A DNA stretch of 64,000 nt from Actinomycetota bacterium (GTDB taxonomy: Bacteria; Actinomycetota; Acidimicrobiia; Acidimicrobiales; Acidimicrobilacustridaceae), in contig JACPNV010000031.1 of the NCBI GenBank assembly GCA_016185305.1, positions 1-64,000 of the forward strand. The letters run 5' to 3'. The translations under genes and the position numbers were made by a program. Under the pieces are notes generated by a model. The model worked only from the letters and a program-made list of their open reading frames with translations. It searched no databases and was not told the DNA's origin. Of this stretch, positions 931-10,825 are shown one piece after another (within the stretch, counting starts at the first letter, position 1; every line of letters begins with the position of its first letter).

Positions 931-1407
931 ATGCCGTCGAAGCGGAAGAAGCAGCCGGCCAAGCCGCCGCGGTTCACGTTGAGCTTCGTCGGGAGTGCGC
1001 TCGAGGACGCCAAGCAGGTGCCGGTCAAGCTGCGCGCGCAGCTCACGCGCATCCTCGAGCAGCTTTCGATGGAAGGCTGCAAGGCCGCCGGCTACGCGCT
1101 CAGCGGCCCGCCGCCCTGGCCCCATCTCTGCTCCGTCCACTTCGACGGCTGGCGCGTCGTGGTTGCCTTTCCGGTCGACGACGAGGTCACCGTCGTCAAG
1201 ATCGCCGAGCACGATCCCGACAGCGACCCCTACCACGAGATCGCCGACGAGCTGGACGTTCCCGTGTCGAAGGAAGAGCGCACCAAGCCGCCGTGCTGCG
1301 GTCCCGACCGCGAACCGCCGATCGATCCTCAGGTGGTCGAGGACTTCGACGCCGCATTCAACGCGTTGATCCGGCGCGAACGCCGGGAGCGATCACGCCG
1401 ACCGTGA
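931..1407 (+). CDS. RelE/ParE-like protein (possible toxin)
   Basis: This 158-aa protein has a central segment of about 90 residues with the RelE/ParE pattern: a helical hairpin (VPVKLRAQLTRILEQL), then beta strands in which an Arg/Trp-bearing strand (VHFDGWRVVVAF) leads to a last strand (EVTVVKIAEHD). A Lys/Pro-rich N-terminus and an Arg-rich C-terminus flank it. RelE/ParE proteins are mRNA interferases or gyrase inhibitors; the catalytic residues cannot be assigned here, so the activity is unknown. The gene follows the XRE gene by 21 nt, as expected of a HigB/HigA-like pair although in the reverse gene order (regulator first). Its 3' end overlaps the convergent HTH gene by 15 bp. Confidence 0.55.
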   Translation: MPSKRKKQPAKPPRFTLSFVGSALEDAKQVPVKLRAQLTRILEQLSMEGCKAAGYALSGPPPWPHLCSVHFDGWRVVVAFPVDDEVTVVKIAEHDPDSDPYHEIADELDVPVSKEERTKPPCCGPDREPPIDPQVVEDFDAAFNALIRRERRERSRRP

Positions 1408-1917
1408 CGCCCGCTCACCGAAGAGCTGTTCCTCGATGTGCTCGGGATCGATGCGTACACGGGAGTCGAGCTCGTCGATGCGCCCGGCAAGTTCGAGACG
1501 GGTCCGCTGGTCCTCCAACGCGTCGAGCAGCCGGCGAAGGAGCCGCTCGTCCTGACCGATCCGCCGGATCGTGCTCGACGCGGCGAGGGTCTCTCCGAGC
1601 GACCTCGGCGTGATCGAGACGGGCTTCGCATCGGGAACGGCATCGAGCACCCCACGCTCGAGCCAGGTCCGCACGGTCGGCTCGGTGATGTCGAGGAGTC
1701 GTGCAGCAACAGAAACCGGGATGCCACCTCCGGCTTCATCGGCTCGCGCCACGATGGCCGCAAGGTGACGGGCGACGCCGGTCGGAACGGCAGGCTCGCC
1801 CAGGGCCGAAACGGCGTCCGCTACATCCACCGCGAGCGCGACGTTCGCCCGCCGATCACGACGGAGGTCGAGCACCCAGGAGGGAAGGGAACGTGCTGAT
1901 GCTGCTGACGAAGCCAT
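1393..1917 (-). CDS. HTH protein, MerR/excisionase-like
   Basis: The 174-aa protein has a helix-turn-helix of the MerR/excisionase kind in its middle (VSVAARLLDITEPTVRTWLE, about residues 85-104), followed by a charged, probably coiled-coil helix (QDERLLRRLLDALEDQRTRL) that could dimerise. It begins at ATG 1917. An AT-rich perfect inverted repeat (1935-1970) sits just upstream, which suggests autoregulation. Its 3' end overlaps the RelE-like gene tail-to-tail. The direction matches the restriction operon, but the gene is separated from hsdR by its own regulatory region. Candidate roles are antitoxin-type repressor or controller of the restriction system; the sequence does not decide between them. 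Confidence 0.6.
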   Translation of the reverse strand: MASSAASARSLPSWVLDLRRDRRANVALAVDVADAVSALGEPAVPTGVARHLAAIVARADEAGGGIPVSVAARLLDITEPTVRTWLERGVLDAVPDAKPVSITPRSLGETLAASSTIRRIGQDERLLRRLLDALEDQRTRLELAGRIDELDSRVRIDPEHIEEQLFGERASRSA

Positions 1918-1985: not shown

Positions 1986-4900
1986 TCAGGTCAGCGAGGT
2001 CTCGCTCTCGTCGTCGTGAGCGACGCGATCCTCGACGATCTGATCCAGGTTCACGATCGGGTCTGACGTGATCACCTCGGCCCACGTCTGGCAAACGGCC
2101 TGCGCCCAAGCGGCCGCCTCGGCCGCGTCACCGGTGCGGTAGCCGTAGCCGTTGATCTCGATGCGAACGTTGTCGGAGTTCGACGAATCGGCGCTCCAGT
2201 GCCAGTTGCGGACGTTGTGACTCGGCAACTGCTTGGCGAGGCGGTCTTCGTAACGGTCGTGAAGGATGTCGAGCACCGCCGAGTTCTCTTCCCTCGTGTC
2301 GTACCCAGCGATGTGGAGGCCCACGGAGCAGGACTCCTGCGTGGTCTTTATGCTCAGGCGTGCCGATCGCCCGTCGAGCTCTGAAGAGGACGGGAAACGC
2401 ATCTCGATGTACGCGCCGCGTGTGTGCATCCGGATGTGTCGCAGCCCTGCGCCGGACAACGGGGCTTGGACGATGTCGAGGACGGCCTTCAGGTAGGCCT
2501 TCTTGTCGGCGTTCACCTTGCCGGCTGTCGCGCTGCCCTTCCGGTTTTTCGATTGCCGCAGAAACGTGTTCGGCTTGGCGAGGATGTCGAAGTCGACGTG
2601 GTACACGTGATCTGCGCCCTGCGTGAATCGCACCCGCGTGAGGACGTAGCCGACATCTGACGACGAGGTCCGGTTCAGGAAGTCGATGGCAGCGACATGG
2701 GCCTCGGCGCTCGTCTCTGTCACCCACACGGCGAGGCCGCGGCCCTGTTGTGCGAGATAGGTGATGAGTGGTCCGAGGTGCCTGTGGTCAGTGATCGAGT
2801 ACTGGTTCTCGATCACGACCGGGAACTCCGTCCCGTCGTCGTCGGTTCCTGCGGCGAGGATGTCGAGCCGCTTCTCTGCCGCCGCGACTTCGGTGTCGAC
2901 GAGGGTCAGCTCCGCAAGCCCGAGTGCGTCTGCGAGGAGGTCCAGATTCTCGGCGAGCCACGGCGTGAAGTGGGTGGCCTCGCCCGGCAGAACGTCACGG
3001 GCCGGCACCCACGCCATTGGCTTGATCACCGGCGGACCAACATGGCTCATCGTCCGATGATGCCACTTGGGGAGGCTCGCCCCAGTTCGTCGGGGTTTGA
3101 CCTTCTTGTAGTCGCTCTCGAGGCCCACCGGCCGTCCATCGTCGTCGACGCCGATTAGCAGCGCCCCGCCCTGACCGTTGAGGAAGCCGGCGACCGTCTT
3201 GGCGATGATCTGCTCGGAGAGTTGCGGGTCATCGGGATCGCCCACACTCCACCTCGCGGACTGCTTGAACTCCACCAAGCGCGTCTCGTCAGCCAAGAGC
3301 TCCTCGGTGGACATCGTCCAGGTTTCGCGCAGCCCGAAGACCTCCTCCATCAGCCGGGCGAACACCTCGGGGTCCTGCCGGGCCTGCTCCAGGAGGTCGT
3401 CGCCGATATCGGCCGCCTTGCTCGGCAGCGTCGCCACCGGTGCCTTCTCCCGTGGCTCCTCGAACGCTCCCGTGTACACCGACTGGCCGTTGTCGAAGTA
3501 GCTGGCGTAGATGTGCTCGTAGACCCGCTGCACCTTGTCGTCGAATAGCTCGGGGCCGTAGACCTCCGGCAATCCGTTGTCGAGGATCTCCCCCACCGCT
3601 ACCTGCACGGCGGCCCGGGTGTGCTGGCGCTTGCGCCAGTCGAGCACCAGCTTCTCGGTGACGTGTTCGAGCAGCTTCTTGGCCGTCGCCTTGACCTGCT
3701 TCCGCTCGGCCTCGGTCAGCTCCGGCTCGGGCTTCGTCAGCAGATCGAAGACGGCCAGCTCGTCTTCGGTGAGGTCTTCGCGCACCGTGCGCTGCTCGTC
3801 CTCGTTCAGCTCGTCGTTGATGGCCTTGAGCCGGCGGAGGAACTCTTCGAGGTTGTGGGTGCCTGCGTTGTACTCGTCGATCAGGCGCCGGAACCGTTCG
3901 GCAAGATCGAGGCGCGTCGGGTTCTTGCGCACGGCGTCGTCGAGGCGGCGTTCGAGGTTCTGCTCGATGTTCTTCGCCGCGGTGCGCTTGTTGCCGGCGA
4001 AGCGGAGGGCGAGCTGCTCGAAGTCGAGCTGGTTGAGGTCGATGAGCGGGCTGGAGTCACCACCGCTGCGGATCACATACTCCTCGGCACCGACGGACCG
4101 GTCGAGCAGCTCGCTCACACCGTCCATCACGTCGCTGATGTCCGGAGCCTCGGTGATCGACTCGAGCTTCGCCGCGAGCGTGCGGATCACCGCCACGCGG
4201 TGCGTCGCCTCCTGTGCGGCCGGATCAGGCAGGAGCGACTTGAAGATGGCCCGCAAGCGCCGCGCCAGGCTGACGAAGCGGCGGCGGGTGGCATCGTCGA
4301 CGAGGAGCGATTCCACGGCCGCCTTCTGGAGCGCAATGAACTCGAACCCCTTGGCTGCTTCGAGGTCGGCCAGCTCGACGTCGTTGGCGTCGAGGAACTC
4401 GACGATCTCGGCGAGGGCCTCCTCCAGCTCCTCGGCCAGCGCGTCCTTCGACTCGATCGGGGTGAAGCCGCCCTCGCGCGTGGCCCCGTAGATCGCGAGA
4501 GCGGCTTCGAGGTTGCGAAACACCCCGACGTAGTCGACGATCAGCCCGCTGTCCTTCTCGGGAAACACCCGGTTGGCGCGGGCGATCGTCTGCATCAGCG
4601 TGTGGTTGCGCATCGGCTTGTCGAGGTAGATCGTCGAGCAAGACGGTGCGTCGAAGCCGGTGAGCCACATCGCGCACACGAACACGAGGCGGAATGGGTC
4701 GTCGGGGTCCTTGAACTTGGAGTCGAGGTCCTCCTCGTTCATGCGCTTGCGGTGCGTAGCGATGTCGAGGCCGACGTCGGCCATGTCAGCCACCTCGTTC
4801 TGCGATTGCGAGACCACGACGGCCATGTCGGTGGTGCGCATGAACTCGATCGTCTCGGCGAGCGGTGGCCGCTCCAGCTCCGGCGTCGTCTCCAGCTCGG

Positions 4901-6608
4901 CTTCGAGCTTGCTGAGGTGCTCGGCCCAGTGCTTCTGCACGAGGTCGTACATCCGCACCGCGGTCGCCTTGTCGATGGCGATGTGCATGGCCTTGCCCCG
5001 GAAGCCTCGACCGACGAAGTGGTCGACCAGGTCGGCGGCGATCTCGTCGAGGCGCTCGGCGCGGGTGATGAGGTGGTACTGGCGGGAGAACTGCCGCGCA
5101 ACCGCCTTCTCCTGGTCGGGGTCGAGGGCGGCGTCGTCGAGCAGCGCTTCGAGCTCGGCGTCGAACTCCTGGTTGGTGAGCTGCAGCTCGGGAATGCGGT
5201 TCTCGTAGTAGAGCGGGACCGTCGCCCCGTCGATGATCGAGTCCCGGAAGTTGTAGGTCGACACGTAGTCGCCGAACACCTGGCGGGTCAGCTCCTCCTC
5301 GCCGGCGATCAGCGGCGTGCCGGTGAACCCGAGGAACGAGGCGTTGGGCAGCGCCTGGCGCATGTTCCAGGCGAGCTGGTCGTACTGCGAGCGGTGCGCC
5401 TCGTCGGTGATGACGATGATGTCCCTGCGGTCGGAGAGGACCGGCATCGGCTGGCCGGCCTCCGGCGGCCGGAACTTGTGGATCAGCGTGAAGACGTAGC
5501 GGTGGTCCTGCCCGAGCAGCTCGCGCAGGTGCTCCGACGTCTCGGCGTGCACGTTCTCGCCGGACGTGAGCACGCCCGAGTCGGCGAACTCCTCGTAGAG
5601 CTGATCGTCGAGCTCCTTGCGGTCCGTCACCTCGACGAAGGTCCAGTTGCCGGGCAGCTTCCGCAGCACCTTCTGCGTGAACCACAGGTTCGAGAGCGAC
5701 TTACCGCTGCCCTGGGTGTGCCAGAACACGCCGAGCTTCGAGCTCTCCTCCGCGCGCGCCGTGTGCAGCGCCTCGATGGCGTTGTTGACGCCGAGGTACT
5801 GGTGGTTCTTCGCGACAGCCTTGACAAGTCCGCCGGGCCGCTCGGTGTAGGTCACGAAGTTCTCCACGAGATCGAGCAGGCGGTAGGGATCGCATGTGCC
5901 GCGCAAGGCCGTCTCGAGACTGACAACGCCGACCTCGCCTTCCGAGTTGATCTTCTTCCAGTCGGCGAAGAAGTCCCACGGCGCGTAGGTCGAACCGACC
6001 TTCGTCTCCGAGCCGTTGGACAGGATCACGAACGCGTTGAACCAGAAGATCTGCCCGATGGTGTCGCGGTAGTCGCGCAGGTTGTCGTCGTAGGCGTTGC
6101 GGATGTTCTTGTGCGAGACCTTCAGCTCGATGAACACGAGCGGGATGCCGTTGACGAACAGCACGATGTCGGCCCGCCGTTTGTACATCTCGCCGGTGAC
6201 CCACAGCTGCGAGACGGCGAGCCAGTCGTTCGCCTCGACGTTGTCCCAGTGGACGAAGCGGATGGTGACGGTGTCAGGTCGACCATCGATCTCGGTCTGG
6301 ACCTTCACGCCGTCGCGCAGCAGCCGGTGGACCTCGCGGTTCGCCCGCACCCGATCCATCGTCGAGCGGCTCTCGGCGAGGATCTCGACCGCCGAGTCGA
6401 GTGCCGCATCCGGCACACCGGGGTTGAGACCCCGCAGCGCTACCCGGAGGCGGTGATGCAGGACGACCTCGGCCTGAGAGTCGCGGCCCAGTGTGCCGGC
6501 CGGGCCGAGCATCTCGTCGAAGCCGGAGGCGACTTCCCACCGGAGGTCGCGTAGCAGCCGCATCGCGGGCTGCTCGACCAGTGCATCCTCCGTCAGCCCG
6601 CCAGCCAT
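1986..6608 (-). CDS. hsdR: Type I restriction subunit HsdR fused to AlbA_2 and DUF4268 regions
   Basis: HsdR is the ATP-dependent translocase and nuclease of a type I restriction enzyme. Residues 1 to about 1090 are a full HsdR: an N-terminal PD-(D/E)XK site (D147, E161-L-K163), Walker A in GVFWHTQGSGKS (about 293-304), DEAH at 402-405, and FTGTP as motif III. The protein then continues to 1540 residues, where HsdR usually ends near 1000-1100. Residues about 1107-1172 match the start of an AlbA_2 (Schlafen-type) domain (VEFKQSARW, LLIGVDDDG, GLESDYKKVK). From about 1205 comes a DUF4268-type protein beginning FTPWLAENLDLL, with a second nuclease-like motif (RLDIL...VVIENQ, D1249 and E1267, Gln in place of Lys). 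The gene lies 2 nt after hsdS. The fusion is read directly from one open frame; its function is unknown. Confidence 0.93.
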   Translation of the reverse strand: MAGGLTEDALVEQPAMRLLRDLRWEVASGFDEMLGPAGTLGRDSQAEVVLHHRLRVALRGLNPGVPDAALDSAVEILAESRSTMDRVRANREVHRLLRDGVKVQTEIDGRPDTVTIRFVHWDNVEANDWLAVSQLWVTGEMYKRRADIVLFVNGIPLVFIELKVSHKNIRNAYDDNLRDYRDTIGQIFWFNAFVILSNGSETKVGSTYAPWDFFADWKKINSEGEVGVVSLETALRGTCDPYRLLDLVENFVTYTERPGGLVKAVAKNHQYLGVNNAIEALHTARAEESSKLGVFWHTQGSGKSLSNLWFTQKVLRKLPGNWTFVEVTDRKELDDQLYEEFADSGVLTSGENVHAETSEHLRELLGQDHRYVFTLIHKFRPPEAGQPMPVLSDRRDIIVITDEAHRSQYDQLAWNMRQALPNASFLGFTGTPLIAGEEELTRQVFGDYVSTYNFRDSIIDGATVPLYYENRIPELQLTNQEFDAELEALLDDAALDPDQEKAVARQFSRQYHLITRAERLDEIAADLVDHFVGRGFRGKAMHIAIDKATAVRMYDLVQKHWAEHLSKLEAELETTPELERPPLAETIEFMRTTDMAVVVSQSQNEVADMADVGLDIATHRKRMNEEDLDSKFKDPDDPFRLVFVCAMWLTGFDAPSCSTIYLDKPMRNHTLMQTIARANRVFPEKDSGLIVDYVGVFRNLEAALAIYGATREGGFTPIESKDALAEELEEALAEIVEFLDANDVELADLEAAKGFEFIALQKAAVESLLVDDATRRRFVSLARRLRAIFKSLLPDPAAQEATHRVAVIRTLAAKLESITEAPDISDVMDGVSELLDRSVGAEEYVIRSGGDSSPLIDLNQLDFEQLALRFAGNKRTAAKNIEQNLERRLDDAVRKNPTRLDLAERFRRLIDEYNAGTHNLEEFLRRLKAINDELNEDEQRTVREDLTEDELAVFDLLTKPEPELTEAERKQVKATAKKLLEHVTEKLVLDWRKRQHTRAAVQVAVGEILDNGLPEVYGPELFDDKVQRVYEHIYASYFDNGQSVYTGAFEEPREKAPVATLPSKAADIGDDLLEQARQDPEVFARLMEEVFGLRETWTMSTEELLADETRLVEFKQSARWSVGDPDDPQLSEQIIAKTVAGFLNGQGGALLIGVDDDGRPVGLESDYKKVKPRRTGASLPKWHHRTMSHVGPPVIKPMAWVPARDVLPGEATHFTPWLAENLDLLADALGLAELTLVDTEVAAAEKRLDILAAGTDDDGTEFPVVIENQYSITDHRHLGPLITYLAQQGRGLAVWVTETSAEAHVAAIDFLNRTSSSDVGYVLTRVRFTQGADHVYHVDFDILAKPNTFLRQSKNRKGSATAGKVNADKKAYLKAVLDIVQAPLSGAGLRHIRMHTRGAYIEMRFPSSSELDGRSARLSIKTTQESCSVGLHIAGYDTREENSAVLDILHDRYEDRLAKQLPSHNVRNWHWSADSSNSDNVRIEINGYGYRTGDAAEAAAWAQAVCQTWAEVITSDPIVNLDQIVEDRVAHDDESETSLT

Positions 6609-6610
6609 GC

Positions 6611-7816
6611 TCAGGCCACCGGTTCCAGGTCGAGTTCAAGGCGCGAGAGATCAAGCTCACCGCTGATGAGCCGCGGCAGGAGAAGATCTCGGGCTTGACG
6701 AAGAGCGGTGTTCTGTCGAATCAGGTTCGATCTCAGCTCGTACATCTGATCCACGACGACGGCGAACCGTTCGAGTACCTCGGCCGGGGGCCTGAGAACC
6801 TTCAGGCCATAGGCTTGGTCACGCGATAGGCCGGGGACGGCAGCGTGCGAGTCGATGAACTCCAGCGTCTGTAGTAGGTGAAAGCAGTAGATGAGGGGCG
6901 CTTCCGTCCGCACGAAGTACGTCGTGTCGATCGGCCAGAAGTCGCCGTCGGACCAGTGCACAGCTCCGACGTTGCCCTTCCGGCCCACGACGATGCCTGG
7001 CCCCCTTACCAGCGACCTGTCATGCCAACCAACGATGCCCGAGGAGCCGTAGACAGCCACGGGCCCAGCGCGACGATCGTCGGCTTTGAGCGCCTTTCCG
7101 TAGGCAAGCTCGAGAATCTCTGATAATGGGACGACAGCCCAGTCAGCCGGAATCGGGCCAAGCTCCGAATCGACTAGTTCTGAATTACTGCTTCCTGAGT
7201 GTCGGAAGCTGACGAACCACTCGCGGTAGATCGACCGGGCCATCTCTTCCAGCACTTGGATCCGTCTGAGGTTGCTCCCGATTAGCTCGTCGTAGGAGGA
7301 GATGAGGTAGACGATCTGATCCTGAACCATGGCCGGAGGTACAGGCACATGTAGTTGACGTTGGGCCGAGATGCTGACGAAGGGCCGCGTCGATTGATTA
7401 CCGATGGCGAACATCTCCGCCTTGAATGCCGGACTTCTGAAGGCGCACGCGAGGTACCGCGCACGAAGCAGGTCTTCGTTTACCCGGTAGTAGGTCACCT
7501 GAGGCGTGAGCATGGCGTATGCCTCCAACGGTGGAAGCACCGCCACCTCGCCCAACGTTCCCTTGTGGCTGAGCAAAACGTCTCCCGGCCGGGCAAAGCC
7601 GACCCGAAGAAGATCCGCCTGCTCGCGTCGCAGGTGTTCACAACCGTCGAGCAGCACCCGACCGTCGCGTAGATTCCTCGACATGATGAATGGGATCCCA
7701 TCCTCGACGTAGTCCGCAGCCTTCGGATGCGCTGCGCCGTGATTCCCGTCCTGGATCGCAATGATCGCTCCGGACCGCTCGAGTTGACCGACAGTATGGA
7801 TCTCAGGGCGAGTCAT
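6611..7816 (-). CDS. hsdS: Type I restriction specificity subunit HsdS
   Basis: HsdS gives sequence specificity to the methylase (M2S) and restriction (R2M2S) complexes. The 401-aa protein shows the duplicated layout of the family: target-recognition domain 1 to about residue 165, a conserved helical spacer ([20 protein letters not shown]), target-recognition domain 2 from about 225, and a C-terminal spacer ([20 protein letters not shown]) followed by the usual [10 protein letters not shown] tail. Length is normal, so recognition should be bipartite. The start overlaps the hsdM stop by 14 bp and the stop lies 2 nt before hsdR, so all three are co-transcribed. Confidence 0.93.
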
Positions 7817-9374
7817 GCGACACCGGCAATGTCAACAGATTGGCCACGGCGGCGGCGATCCGCCCTTGATGCTCCAACGCTTCGCCGTTCAGGGCCTCCA
7901 GTTCCTCCTGGAGTTGCTCCAGCCGAACAGCGAACTCGAAGCCATCGTCCTCTGCAGCGGCCAGTCCCACATATCGACCAGGGTTGAGGCTCCAGTCTTG
8001 GGCCTTGATCTCCTCGATGGTCACCGCCCGGCACTGGCCAGCAATGTCGGCGTAGGTGCCGTCAGGAAAGGAGTCGGCAATCCACGATGAACCCGAGTTC
8101 TCCGTCGCGGCGCTCGTCTCACCACGGTAAAGGCGAGCTATGCACGCGAGGTACTCGATCTGTTCGGGCAGGAAGTCGCGGTGCGCTCGATCAATCTGGT
8201 TAAACACACCTCGAGCATCAATGAAGAGCACCCTGTCGGCGCGCGCAGTGTCCCGCTTGCCGTTGTCGAGGAACCACAACGTCACTGGCAAGGCCACGGT
8301 GTAGAAGAAGTTCGTACCCACCGACACAATCACGTCGACAACGCGGTCCTCGATGAGCTGGCGACGGATCTCCATTTCTGAGCCGCGAGCGTCCGACGCC
8401 GAGTTGGCCATGACGAACCCGGCCCGGCCGGTCTCGTTGAGCGCTGAGTAGAACGCCTGGATCCAGAGGTAATTGGCGTTGTCGGGCTTCGGGAGGCCGA
8501 AGGGGAACCGCTTGTCGTCCTCGAGCTTGGCCTTGTCGACCTTGTTCACGTTGAACGGCGGATTGGCCATGACGAAGTCGAACTTGCCAATCGCGTTGTG
8601 CAGGTCCTCGTAGTAGGTGTTCGCCTCACGGATGTCGCCGGCGAGCCCGTGCACCGCCAGGTTCATCTTCGCCAGGCGCACTGTCTCCTTCGTCTTCTCC
8701 TGCCCGTAGACCGACAGCTCGGATCCGGGGTCCTTGCGGTGGCGCTCGACGAAGTGCGCCGACTGCACGAACATGCCTCCCGATCCGCACGCAGGGTCGT
8801 AGATCTTGCCGTGGTATGGCTCGATGATCTCGACGATGAGTTTGACGATCGACGTCGGCGTGAAGAACTCGCCGCCCTTCTGGCCCTCGGCAAACGCGAA
8901 CTTGGCGAGGAAGTACTCGTAGATGAGACCGAAGCCGTCGCCCTCGATCGAGTGCGGGAGCCGGCCGAGGAGCCGCAGCAGCTCGACGAGCACCTCGTTC
9001 GGCAACCCGGCGTACGCGCGGGGCAACACGCCGTCGAGATCCGGGTTCGTTCCCTCGATCGCCGCCATCGCATCGTTCAGCGCCTTGCCGATGTCAGCGC
9101 CCTCGGGCAACGACACGAGCTTGTCGAAGCGAGCCTCCTCAGGCAGGTAGAGCACGCCACGCGCGTGGTAGTCGGCGGGGCCAACCTTCCGCCGACCCGT
9201 GCCCTTGCCCTCGAGCTCGTCGTGGACAGCGGCGAAGCGCAGGTCCGCGTAGCGCAGGAAGATCAGACCGAGCACTGGCGTCGAGTACTCCGACGCGCGC
9301 AGGCCCGAATTGGCGCGCAGCTGGTCGGCGGCCTCCCACAGCCGGTTCTGCAGTTCGTTCAGATCCGTCGCCAT
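7803..9374 (-). CDS. hsdM: Type I restriction N6-adenine methyltransferase HsdM
   Basis: HsdM transfers a methyl group from SAM to adenine N6 in the site chosen by HsdS. The 523-aa sequence has an N-terminal helical HsdM_N domain (residues about 5-130), SAM-binding motif I ([10 protein letters not shown]) and catalytic motif IV (NPPF in [10 protein letters not shown]). Length is normal. A GGAGAG ribosome-binding site lies just before ATG 9374. It is the first gene of hsdM-hsdS-hsdR, and the integrase gene ends 45 bp upstream on the same strand. Confidence 0.95.
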
Positions 9375-9418
9375 CTCTCTCCTGTCGGTCGGTATCGCTC
9401 AGGTGTGACTGCTTGCGC

Positions 9419-10630
9419 CTACAGCTCGAGCGCGGTGATGGCCTTGCGCTTGCCGACGTCGGTGCGGCCGTCGTAGTGGAGCCGCAGCGTCGCCTCGCTG
9501 TTGCCGAGGATGTCGGCGACCGTGCGGTAGGACTCGCCGGCGTCGAGCATCGCCGTCGCGGTGTAGTGACGCAGGTGCAGCAGCGTGATCGGCGACGCGC
9601 CACGGGCCGTGGCCCAACGGTTCGTCACGTTGTCGGGCCGCATCGGTGTCGTGCCTTCGATGCCGGCCGGGAAGATGTACTCGTTCGGCGCCGGCTCGCG
9701 CCGGAGTAGTTCCGTCCGCCGCTCGGCCTGCCGCTTGAACGCCTCGACCGCGCCGGTCGTCAACGGCACGTCCCGCCAGTCCGATCGCTTGGTTGCCTTG
9801 TAGGCGAGCCCGATGCCGGGGCCGCCGTCACTGATCGCCGCCGCCACGTGGACCTCGGCCAGGTCGAGGTCCACGTCCGACCACCGCAGCGCGATGAACT
9901 CACCCCGGCGCATGCCGGTGCTCGCCAGGATCGTCGCCGCATCCTTGATCTCCGGGTCGTGCCGTTCGGCCTTGGCCAGCACGGCTCGAACCTCGTCGCT
10001 CGTCGGCGCCCACGGCTTCGACCGTGACGTGCGCGGGCGAGCGGCGTCCTTCGCCGGGTTCGAGTCGAGGAGTCCGCGCTTGCGGGCGAGGTCGAGAGCT
10101 CGGGTCAGGACGGTGGCGCAGCGCCGCACGTACGCCGGGCTCTTCCCCTCCGAACGCATCGCGCCGTAGAGGTACTCGATGTCCTGCCACGTGAGACGGC
10201 TGAGGCGGATCGACCCGAACTCCCGGCCGTCGGGCAGCTCGGTCGCCGACATGACCCGGGTCGCCGAGCGGACGGTGGCGATCGTGCTCGGAGCCAGCTC
10301 GATCAGCCCGGCGTCGACCGCTTGGAGGTAGAGCTGGAAGACGGCAGCCACCGACCGGGCGTTGGTGCCGCCGGCCGGCAGGCGCTTCTCGTGGTCGGCG
10401 ACCTTCAGCCGGGCGAGCGCGATCTCGGCGTCTACACGCGTGCCGTGGACCGTGCGGGACACGCGCCGGCGACGACCGGTGACCGGGTCGCGACCGACCT
10501 CGACATCGACGCGCCAGACGCCCTCGCGCACGGCGAAGACGCCGCCGCTCCCGCGCCGCCGTGCCCGCTTCGTCGACCGCTCTACCGAGGGGGAACGGCG
10601 TGCTCTCGATGTGGTCGCGGCTCGTGCCAT
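9419..10630 (-). CDS. int: Tyrosine recombinase (site-specific integrase)
   Basis: The 403-aa protein has a basic N-terminal arm-binding region, a SAM-like core-binding domain (about 100-190) and a C-terminal catalytic domain with the family residues: Arg in STGMRRGEF, the HxxR pair in LLHLRHYTATAML, and the nucleophile Tyr in ATLRLHYDGRTD. Such enzymes integrate and excise genomic islands, often at tRNA genes. The gene starts 120 bp from the 3' end of tRNA-Gly, which is the usual place for the integrase of an island using that tRNA as attB. The island therefore extends to lower coordinates. No excisionase is obvious next to it; the HTH protein at 1393-1917 is a possible candidate. Confidence 0.92.
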   Translation of the reverse strand: MARAATTSRARRSPSVERSTKRARRRGSGGVFAVREGVWRVDVEVGRDPVTGRRRRVSRTVHGTRVDAEIALARLKVADHEKRLPAGGTNARSVAAVFQLYLQAVDAGLIELAPSTIATVRSATRVMSATELPDGREFGSIRLSRLTWQDIEYLYGAMRSEGKSPAYVRRCATVLTRALDLARKRGLLDSNPAKDAARPRTSRSKPWAPTSDEVRAVLAKAERHDPEIKDAATILASTGMRRGEFIALRWSDVDLDLAEVHVAAAISDGGPGIGLAYKATKRSDWRDVPLTTGAVEAFKRQAERRTELLRREPAPNEYIFPAGIEGTTPMRPDNVTNRWATARGASPITLLHLRHYTATAMLDAGESYRTVADILGNSEATLRLHYDGRTDVGKRKAITALEL

Positions 10631-10752
10631 GACTCACCTCCGAGGTAGAGCGGCGCTGGAACCCCGGAGATGGTAGAGCGTTTGAGTAGAGCGTGAGAGG
10701 ATGAGCGCGGCAGAGGCCCTCCGGAGAGGGCCTCTGACCAGGCATTTCTTGG

Positions 10753-10825
10753 AGCGGACGACGAGATTCGAACTCGCGACCCTCACCTTGGCAAGGTGAT
10801 GCTCTACCAACTGAGCCACGTCCGC
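10753..10825 (-). tRNA. tRNA-Gly (GCC anticodon)
   Basis: On the minus strand a 73-nt cloverleaf can be folded. The 7-bp acceptor stem is GCGGACG with CGTCCGC, the D arm contains GCTCAGTTGGTAGAGC, the anticodon stem CACCT/AGGTG carries loop TTGCCAA (anticodon GCC), and the T arm contains GTTCGAATC. The 3' CCA is encoded (10750-10752). This is the probable integration target of the island to its left. Confidence 0.95.

Follow-up and report, generated by a model that had tools for sequence, protein, structure and literature searches.

The EcoprrI type IC operon includes the gene of an effector, the anticodon nuclease PrrC, which serves as a back-up if restriction is inhibited (PMC3874165, PMC12707154). 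In the RRDM island of enteropathogenic E. coli, DarTG2 is placed between hsdS and hsdR (PMC12255303), and in the GmrSD (DUF262/DUF1524) type IV restriction enzymes DUF4268 is a known add-on (PMC4619093). The locus described in the present study resembles PrrC in that an effector belongs to a type I operon, but PrrC is a separate protein and an RNase, and is not covalently joined to HsdR. It resembles the RRDM island in that a type I operon hosts another defence effector, and DarT itself also occurs in the slot after hsdR in two of the loci that we compared (L206 and L220; loci are cited by our own numbers). The RRDM island, however, uses another position in the operon and contains no fusion. 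With GmrSD it shares the DUF4268 add-on, which is present in some of these enzymes, and we also found proteins that combine GmrSD_N with AlbA_2, as well as a GmrS gene that occupies the hsdR slot, but no HsdR is involved in the GmrSD fusions.

Two kinds of protein are closer to the locus. HsdR-SLFN_AlbA_2 (PF04326) proteins of Acidimicrobiia and other Actinomycetota have an HsdR body that is 72-88% identical to the one described here, and their AlbA_2 domain starts at the same place. These relatives end 0-14 residues past a complete AlbA_2, whereas our locus lacks the second half of AlbA_2 and continues with about 345 DUF4268-type residues. The PDC-S11/DUF4268 proteins, a PADLOC candidate defence family (PF14088), have the same nuclease-like N-terminal domain with E, D, E-N and H, and they recur in type I operons. 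All others that we found are separate proteins of about 300-500 residues, however, and the C-terminal part in our locus is divergent and falls below PF14088.

The fused reading frame and its island

We analysed a stretch of 64,000 nucleotides, which we call the window (Actinomycetota bacterium, order Acidimicrobiales; assembly GCA_016185305.1, contig JACPNV010000031.1). Its position 1 is also position 1 of the contig. The frame 1986-6608 on the minus strand is open throughout and has 1540 codons. The features of this frame and its surroundings are as follows.

10750..10825, minus strand: tRNA-Gly (GCC), attachment site and left end of the island (ARAGORN; same tRNA placement in L017 and L189)
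9419..10630, minus strand: tyrosine integrase of the island (PF00589, E 9.7e-18; first 74 residues 82% identical in L189)
7803..9374, minus strand: hsdM (PADLOC MTase_I, E 3.7e-217; 80% identity to hsdM of L017)
6611..7816, minus strand: hsdS (PADLOC Specificity_I, E 1.6e-70; PF01420)
3330..6608, minus strand: HsdR proper, residues 1 to about 1093 (TIGR00348, E 8.5e-145; Pfam; motifs)
3096..3326, minus strand: AlbA_2 remnant, N-terminal half only, residues 1095 to about 1171 (PF04326, profile 1-54 of 118)
3030..3095, minus strand: junction or linker, residues 1172-1193 (resembles former non-coding DNA)
1986..3029, minus strand: PDC-S11/DUF4268-type protein, residues about 1194-1540 (PDLC04911, E 2.9e-45)
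1393..1917, minus strand: helix-turn-helix protein, right-hand neighbour of the DUF4268-type part (65% identity to L189 9570-10061; weak HTH_23 match)
931..1407, plus strand: small convergent gene, toxin-like by eye (30-residue match, same place in L189)

Judging from these genes, the locus is a type I restriction-modification island at tRNA-Gly, made up of the tRNA, the integrase, hsdM, hsdS and hsdR. The same island at the same tRNA-Gly is present in L017, which comes from another family of the same order and encodes an HsdR of 1260 residues with a complete AlbA_2. L017 has both attL and attR, the latter being a repeat of the tRNA-Gly 3' end beyond hsdR. An attR was found neither in the window nor beyond the DUF4268 gene of L189, a groundwater actinomycete assembly that has the same tRNA-Gly and the start of the same integrase. 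At 217-1917 of the window, two helix-turn-helix proteins and the small convergent gene form a module that is partly conserved beside the DUF4268 gene of L189.

In the 1540-residue protein, Pfam recognized HSDR_N at 5-210, SWI2_SNF2 at 269-492, a T1R_D3-like region at 616-693 and a T1RH-like_C region at 716-1033. The features by which an HsdR subunit is known are all present, that is, the PD-(D/E)XK nuclease motif of HSDR_N (D147, E161-x-K163), an SF2 motor with Walker A (TQGSGKS, 298) and DEAH (402), and the C-terminal helical region. The HMM domain search of the C-terminal end gave half of an SLFN_AlbA_2 and then PDC-S11. A first-pass annotation of this DNA had described a single 1540-residue frame with a complete HsdR, a partial AlbA_2 and a near-complete DUF4268-type protein, and the open frame and the Pfam and PADLOC matches confirmed this description. 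Its statement that HsdR proteins end near 1000-1100 residues is untrue here, as HsdR-AlbA_2 proteins of 1130-1330 residues are common in the class, about 1270-1330 residues being ordinary.

Frames of this kind and length were numerous in 395 genomes of the class. In about 30 public-genome loci a single frame encoded both HsdR and AlbA_2, and nearly all of these frames stopped no more than 14 residues past a complete AlbA_2; the viral contigs searched held no HsdR-AlbA_2. The novelty therefore does not lie in the first two parts of the order. GmrSD_N proteins can also end in AlbA_2, and a type IIG restriction-methyltransferase contains it internally (L253, L243, L252); AlbA_2 is thus a shared add-on of several kinds of restriction enzyme.

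The search for the fusion covered 61 relatives and 395 class, 396 phylum and 397 order genomes (overlapping samples, about 1,250) together with 61 viral contigs, and nowhere else in these samples was a DUF4268-type part fused to HsdR. In the same searches, the other homologues of its N-terminal domain were all in shorter frames without HsdR, mostly of 300-500 residues, and the C-terminal part as a direct query against genome contigs found no relative. The nearest named relatives were mostly Acidimicrobiia and other Actinomycetota. In the literature searched, which included few subscription papers, neither an HsdR-DUF4268 fusion nor HsdR-AlbA_2 was described. Within these searches, it is excluded that the fusion is already common and described, while the HsdR-AlbA_2 part of it is common. 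The new element, apparently unique among the sequences compared, is the loss of the second half of AlbA_2 together with the in-frame DUF4268-type protein; the two proteins so fused are of known defence kinds.

The AlbA_2 remnant and the junction

SLFN_AlbA_2 (PF04326) matched residues 1108-1168, which correspond to profile positions 1-54 of 118 (Pfam), and the match of the full-length AlbA_2 of L017 covered positions 1-115 of 118. The window protein has no complete AlbA_2: the C-terminal half with the NNSTR-like motif, which is invariant in relatives, is gone. The break follows GLESDYKKVK at about 3095 on the minus strand, as the first-pass annotation had placed it. That annotation was also right that AlbA_2 is shortened, but about the first half is left rather than the first two-thirds, and the lost end, judged by relatives, comprises the last 85-95 or so residues instead of about 40. 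The missing half was sought in the rest of the assembly and was absent.

The DNA of L017 aligns gap-free to window positions 3108-6625 with 83% identity, and the alignment ends at 3108. The G+C content at third codon positions was 0.65 in residues 1170-1195 as compared with 0.83-0.96 elsewhere in the frame (p 0.004). A value this low is what former non-coding DNA would be expected to give, and the linker of 22-26 residues resembles such DNA. No microhomology or repeat to account for the junction was found, and the linker RNA showed no unusual structure (z -1.0).

The identity of HsdR to L017 was 88% over residues 1-1100 and 88-91% over residues 1-1000. The AlbA_2 remnant was 60% identical to L017, and in the same stretch L017 was 97% identical to L188 and 93% to L189; no locus compared was closer than about 61% to the remnant. 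The relative-rate counts in the remnant, window versus L017, were 14:3 and 15:5 with L190 and L193 as outgroups (p 0.008 and 0.025, respectively) and were even elsewhere. When the distant outgroup L229 was used, the rates in the remnant were equal. The pairwise dN/dS of the remnant was 0.28-0.55 in pairs with the window and 0.04-0.23 in other pairs. A truncated AlbA_2 that was presumably freed from selection explains the fast remnant; it could instead be a foreign AlbA_2 allele recombined in from an unsampled lineage. We had also considered the open state of the remnant as a sign of maintenance and dropped it, since a stop-codon simulation was without power in such G+C-rich sequence.

Because only the window lineage has a fast remnant, with 60% identity to L017 where most of HsdR has 88-91%, the fusion seems to be old and not an assembly slip. 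Were it an artefact, strain variants or separate genes would have been joined at 3095, and the real genome would have an intact HsdR-AlbA_2 and a separate DUF4268 gene. The source assembly is metagenome-like (99 contigs, 72% complete), the junction is 3.1 kb from the contig end and the fusion is the sole example in all searches, which weighs against our preferred explanation; L189 shows, moreover, that such genes can adjoin. Nevertheless, synteny with L189 assigns both sides of the junction to the same locus, the frame stays open across it, the lost half of AlbA_2 is nowhere in the assembly, and the recent join of an intact gene would not give a remnant so divergent. We consider such an artefact improbable.

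The DUF4268-type part

This part consists of an N-terminal PD-(D/E)XK-like domain (about residues 1205-1345) and a C-terminal domain (about 1366-1530). The PADLOC profile PDC-S11 (PDLC04911) matches residues 1199-1463 with its positions 9-260 of 318. Pfam DUF4268 (PF14088) gave no match in the window protein up to E 1 and matched in L189 and L105, and we attribute this to the divergent C-terminal half of the window protein. That is, the DUF4268-type identity given in the first-pass annotation holds by way of PDC-S11 but not by way of the Pfam family itself.

All invariant residues of the PDC-S11/DUF4268 family are retained in the window, and the conserved E, D, E-N and H of the N-terminal domain are present. 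The PD-(D/E)XK-like site proposed earlier was found at D1249 (2864-2862) and E1267 (2810-2808), with Gln (Q1269) in the position of Lys. The third catalytic position varies across the family (Q, M, F). With Gln in place of Lys and this position variable, catalysis by the fused domain is putative.

Structure prediction gave high confidence for the N-terminal part of the fused domain, for which a PD-(D/E)XK-like fold is predicted. In the model, the fold was closest to that of EndoMS/NucS (Z 11.2, rmsd 2.8 over 108) and was also near PaqCI, AspBHI, MspJI and FokI (Z 8-9). Model confidence was low for the AlbA_2 remnant and the linker, and the modelled C-terminal domain had middling fold matches (Z up to 8.9). 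A search for a solved structure related by sequence to the DUF4268-type part found none.

The last 165 residues of an OLD-like AAA protein in L273 (6142-8538, 798 aa) were 34% identical to the C-terminal domain only, and because of this homology we regard the C-terminal domain as a movable module. A second, stand-alone DUF4268-type gene is present in the genome of the window (L002, G000:C7, 1054-2007; 36% identity over 154 aa). In a tree, the window part was placed beside L148; this placement was set aside, as it joins two long branches.

We then considered whether the fusion might be real but dead, its C-terminal part being inactivated and the DUF4268 portion passive ballast, or the whole system decaying. 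AlbA_2 has lost its conserved half with the NNSTR motif and its remnant is accelerated, which agrees with such decay. The HsdR body, however, is strongly constrained (dN/dS about 0.10 for residues 1-750, window versus L017), and its rate on the window lineage is not above that of L017 in the relative-rate counts. In addition, hsdM and hsdS are intact in the same operon and on the same strand as the fusion, and the DUF4268-type part keeps every invariant family residue and a coding-like third-position G+C content of 0.83-0.86 over about 345 codons. A dead fusion therefore seems to us quite unlikely.

A somewhat less remote alternative, though still an unlikely one, is that translation of the DUF4268-type part begins also or mainly inside the frame (GTG, about 3029, or ATG, 3050), which would yield a separate protein that is still a free effector encoded by the operon. 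The N-terminus of the family aligns at about residue 1194, and the separate gene of relatives has its own start just after hsdR, both of which fit with this idea. On the other hand, no clear ribosome-binding site lies upstream of either start, and the frame is continuous with HsdR.

Of about 100 DUF4268 loci, about 11 had the gene within a type I operon and on its strand; in L105, L110, L143 and L181 it lay directly after hsdR. On unrelated contigs, DUF4268/PDC-S11 genes are inside type I operons or end them in L037/L159, L181, L105, L110, L143, L087, L089, L103, L125 and L148, at differing positions in the operon. Considering the recurrence of such genes together with the intact HsdR motifs and the predicted PD-(D/E)XK-like fold, we find it plausible, as the first-pass annotation suggested, that the product may be a restriction enzyme with an additional arm, either a nuclease or a sensor.

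The slot after hsdR and the origin of the fusion

Directly after hsdR, we found a GmrSD_N (GmrS) gene in L188, DarT in L206 and L220, Fic in L229, AAA_21 in L216, Mrr_cat in L191, DUF4268 in L189, a 297-residue protein of no known kind in L262, and nothing in L017. The gene in this place overlaps hsdR by four bases in L206, L220, L229 and L262. Because relatives hold GmrS, DarT, Fic or nothing there, we regard the position after hsdR as a cargo slot. In L194, a reverse transcriptase gene (8596-10239) begins 121 bases downstream of hsdR-AlbA_2.

In L189, hsdR ends with an intact AlbA_2 and a stop codon, and a separate DUF4268 gene follows 3 bases on. To the right of this gene lie homologues of the next two genes of the window, with their order and orientation kept. 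This shared order indicates that the DUF4268-type part occupies the same slot in the window and in L189. L189 also has a large internal deletion (7762-8504), by which the start of the integrase is joined to the AlbA_2 end of hsdR; most restriction genes were lost and the DUF4268 gene was kept. The two DUF4268-type sequences are only 34% identical over 149 aa, belong to different clades and are not orthologs, while the flanking genes are 65-82% identical. Thus, either the content of the slot has been exchanged or the DUF4268 genes diverge very fast. A direct unfused parent was not seen among the loci compared.

The first-pass annotation had explained the fusion by a deletion that joined two defence-related genes. 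The joining and the loss of the AlbA_2 end agree with the break near the alignment stop of L017 at 3108, with the separate genes of L189 and with the shared right-hand genes. A simple deletion between resident genes is, however, only one possible history, because the DUF4268-type part of the window is not an ortholog of that in L189. A segment with a different DUF4268 gene may have been recombined over the end of hsdR together with the earlier cargo. The different clade of the L189 gene between better-conserved flanking genes favors such a replacement, but the exact outer boundaries of the segment are not visible and the right-hand gene is shared. We give this replacement somewhat less than an even chance; it concerns only the history of the join and is compatible with the mechanism that we prefer.

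Our preferred explanation, which we think is probable, is that hsdR-AlbA_2 was joined in frame to a DUF4268/PDC-S11 gene of the slot, so that the restriction subunit carries a nuclease-like effector on a tether. The original gene would have been an HsdR-AlbA_2 gene with a DUF4268/PDC-S11 gene in the cargo slot just downstream, and a deletion or recombination would have removed the last 85-95 codons of AlbA_2, the stop codon of hsdR and the gap, as judged by relatives and leaving the exact event aside. The product is most likely one polypeptide, in which a working HsdR motor-nuclease is followed by the decaying AlbA_2 remnant as a linker and by a C-terminal PD-(D/E)XK-like effector. The tether itself is established at the level of the reading frame, and the fold of the effector is predicted by the model. 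The activity and the trigger of the effector we infer as follows: the HsdR2M2S complex would deliver its tethered effector to invading DNA that is unmodified, and the effector would cut or nick there a second time, or back up a blocked restriction, like the separate PrrC or DarTG effectors.

We also speculate, more tentatively, that HsdR-AlbA_2 systems are platforms with an exchangeable effector. In such platforms, AlbA_2 and the cistron after hsdR (DarT, Fic, GmrS, DUF4268) would be alternative abortive or second-strike effectors. Here one of them would covalently replace AlbA_2, so that target recognition by the restriction complex might directly position or trigger the effector. Seen as a whole, the fusion resembles a naturally made effector swap on a known enzyme rather than a novel type of system.

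That HsdR is naturally fused here to the product of a gene that is otherwise its operon neighbour is evidence of joint action of the two. The fusion offers a testable case of type I restriction complexes carrying effectors beyond the nuclease of HsdR itself, and it suggests where the uncharacterised DUF4268/PDC-S11 family is likely to act. Of more general interest is the variable slot right after hsdR-AlbA_2, which holds several kinds of toxin and nuclease.
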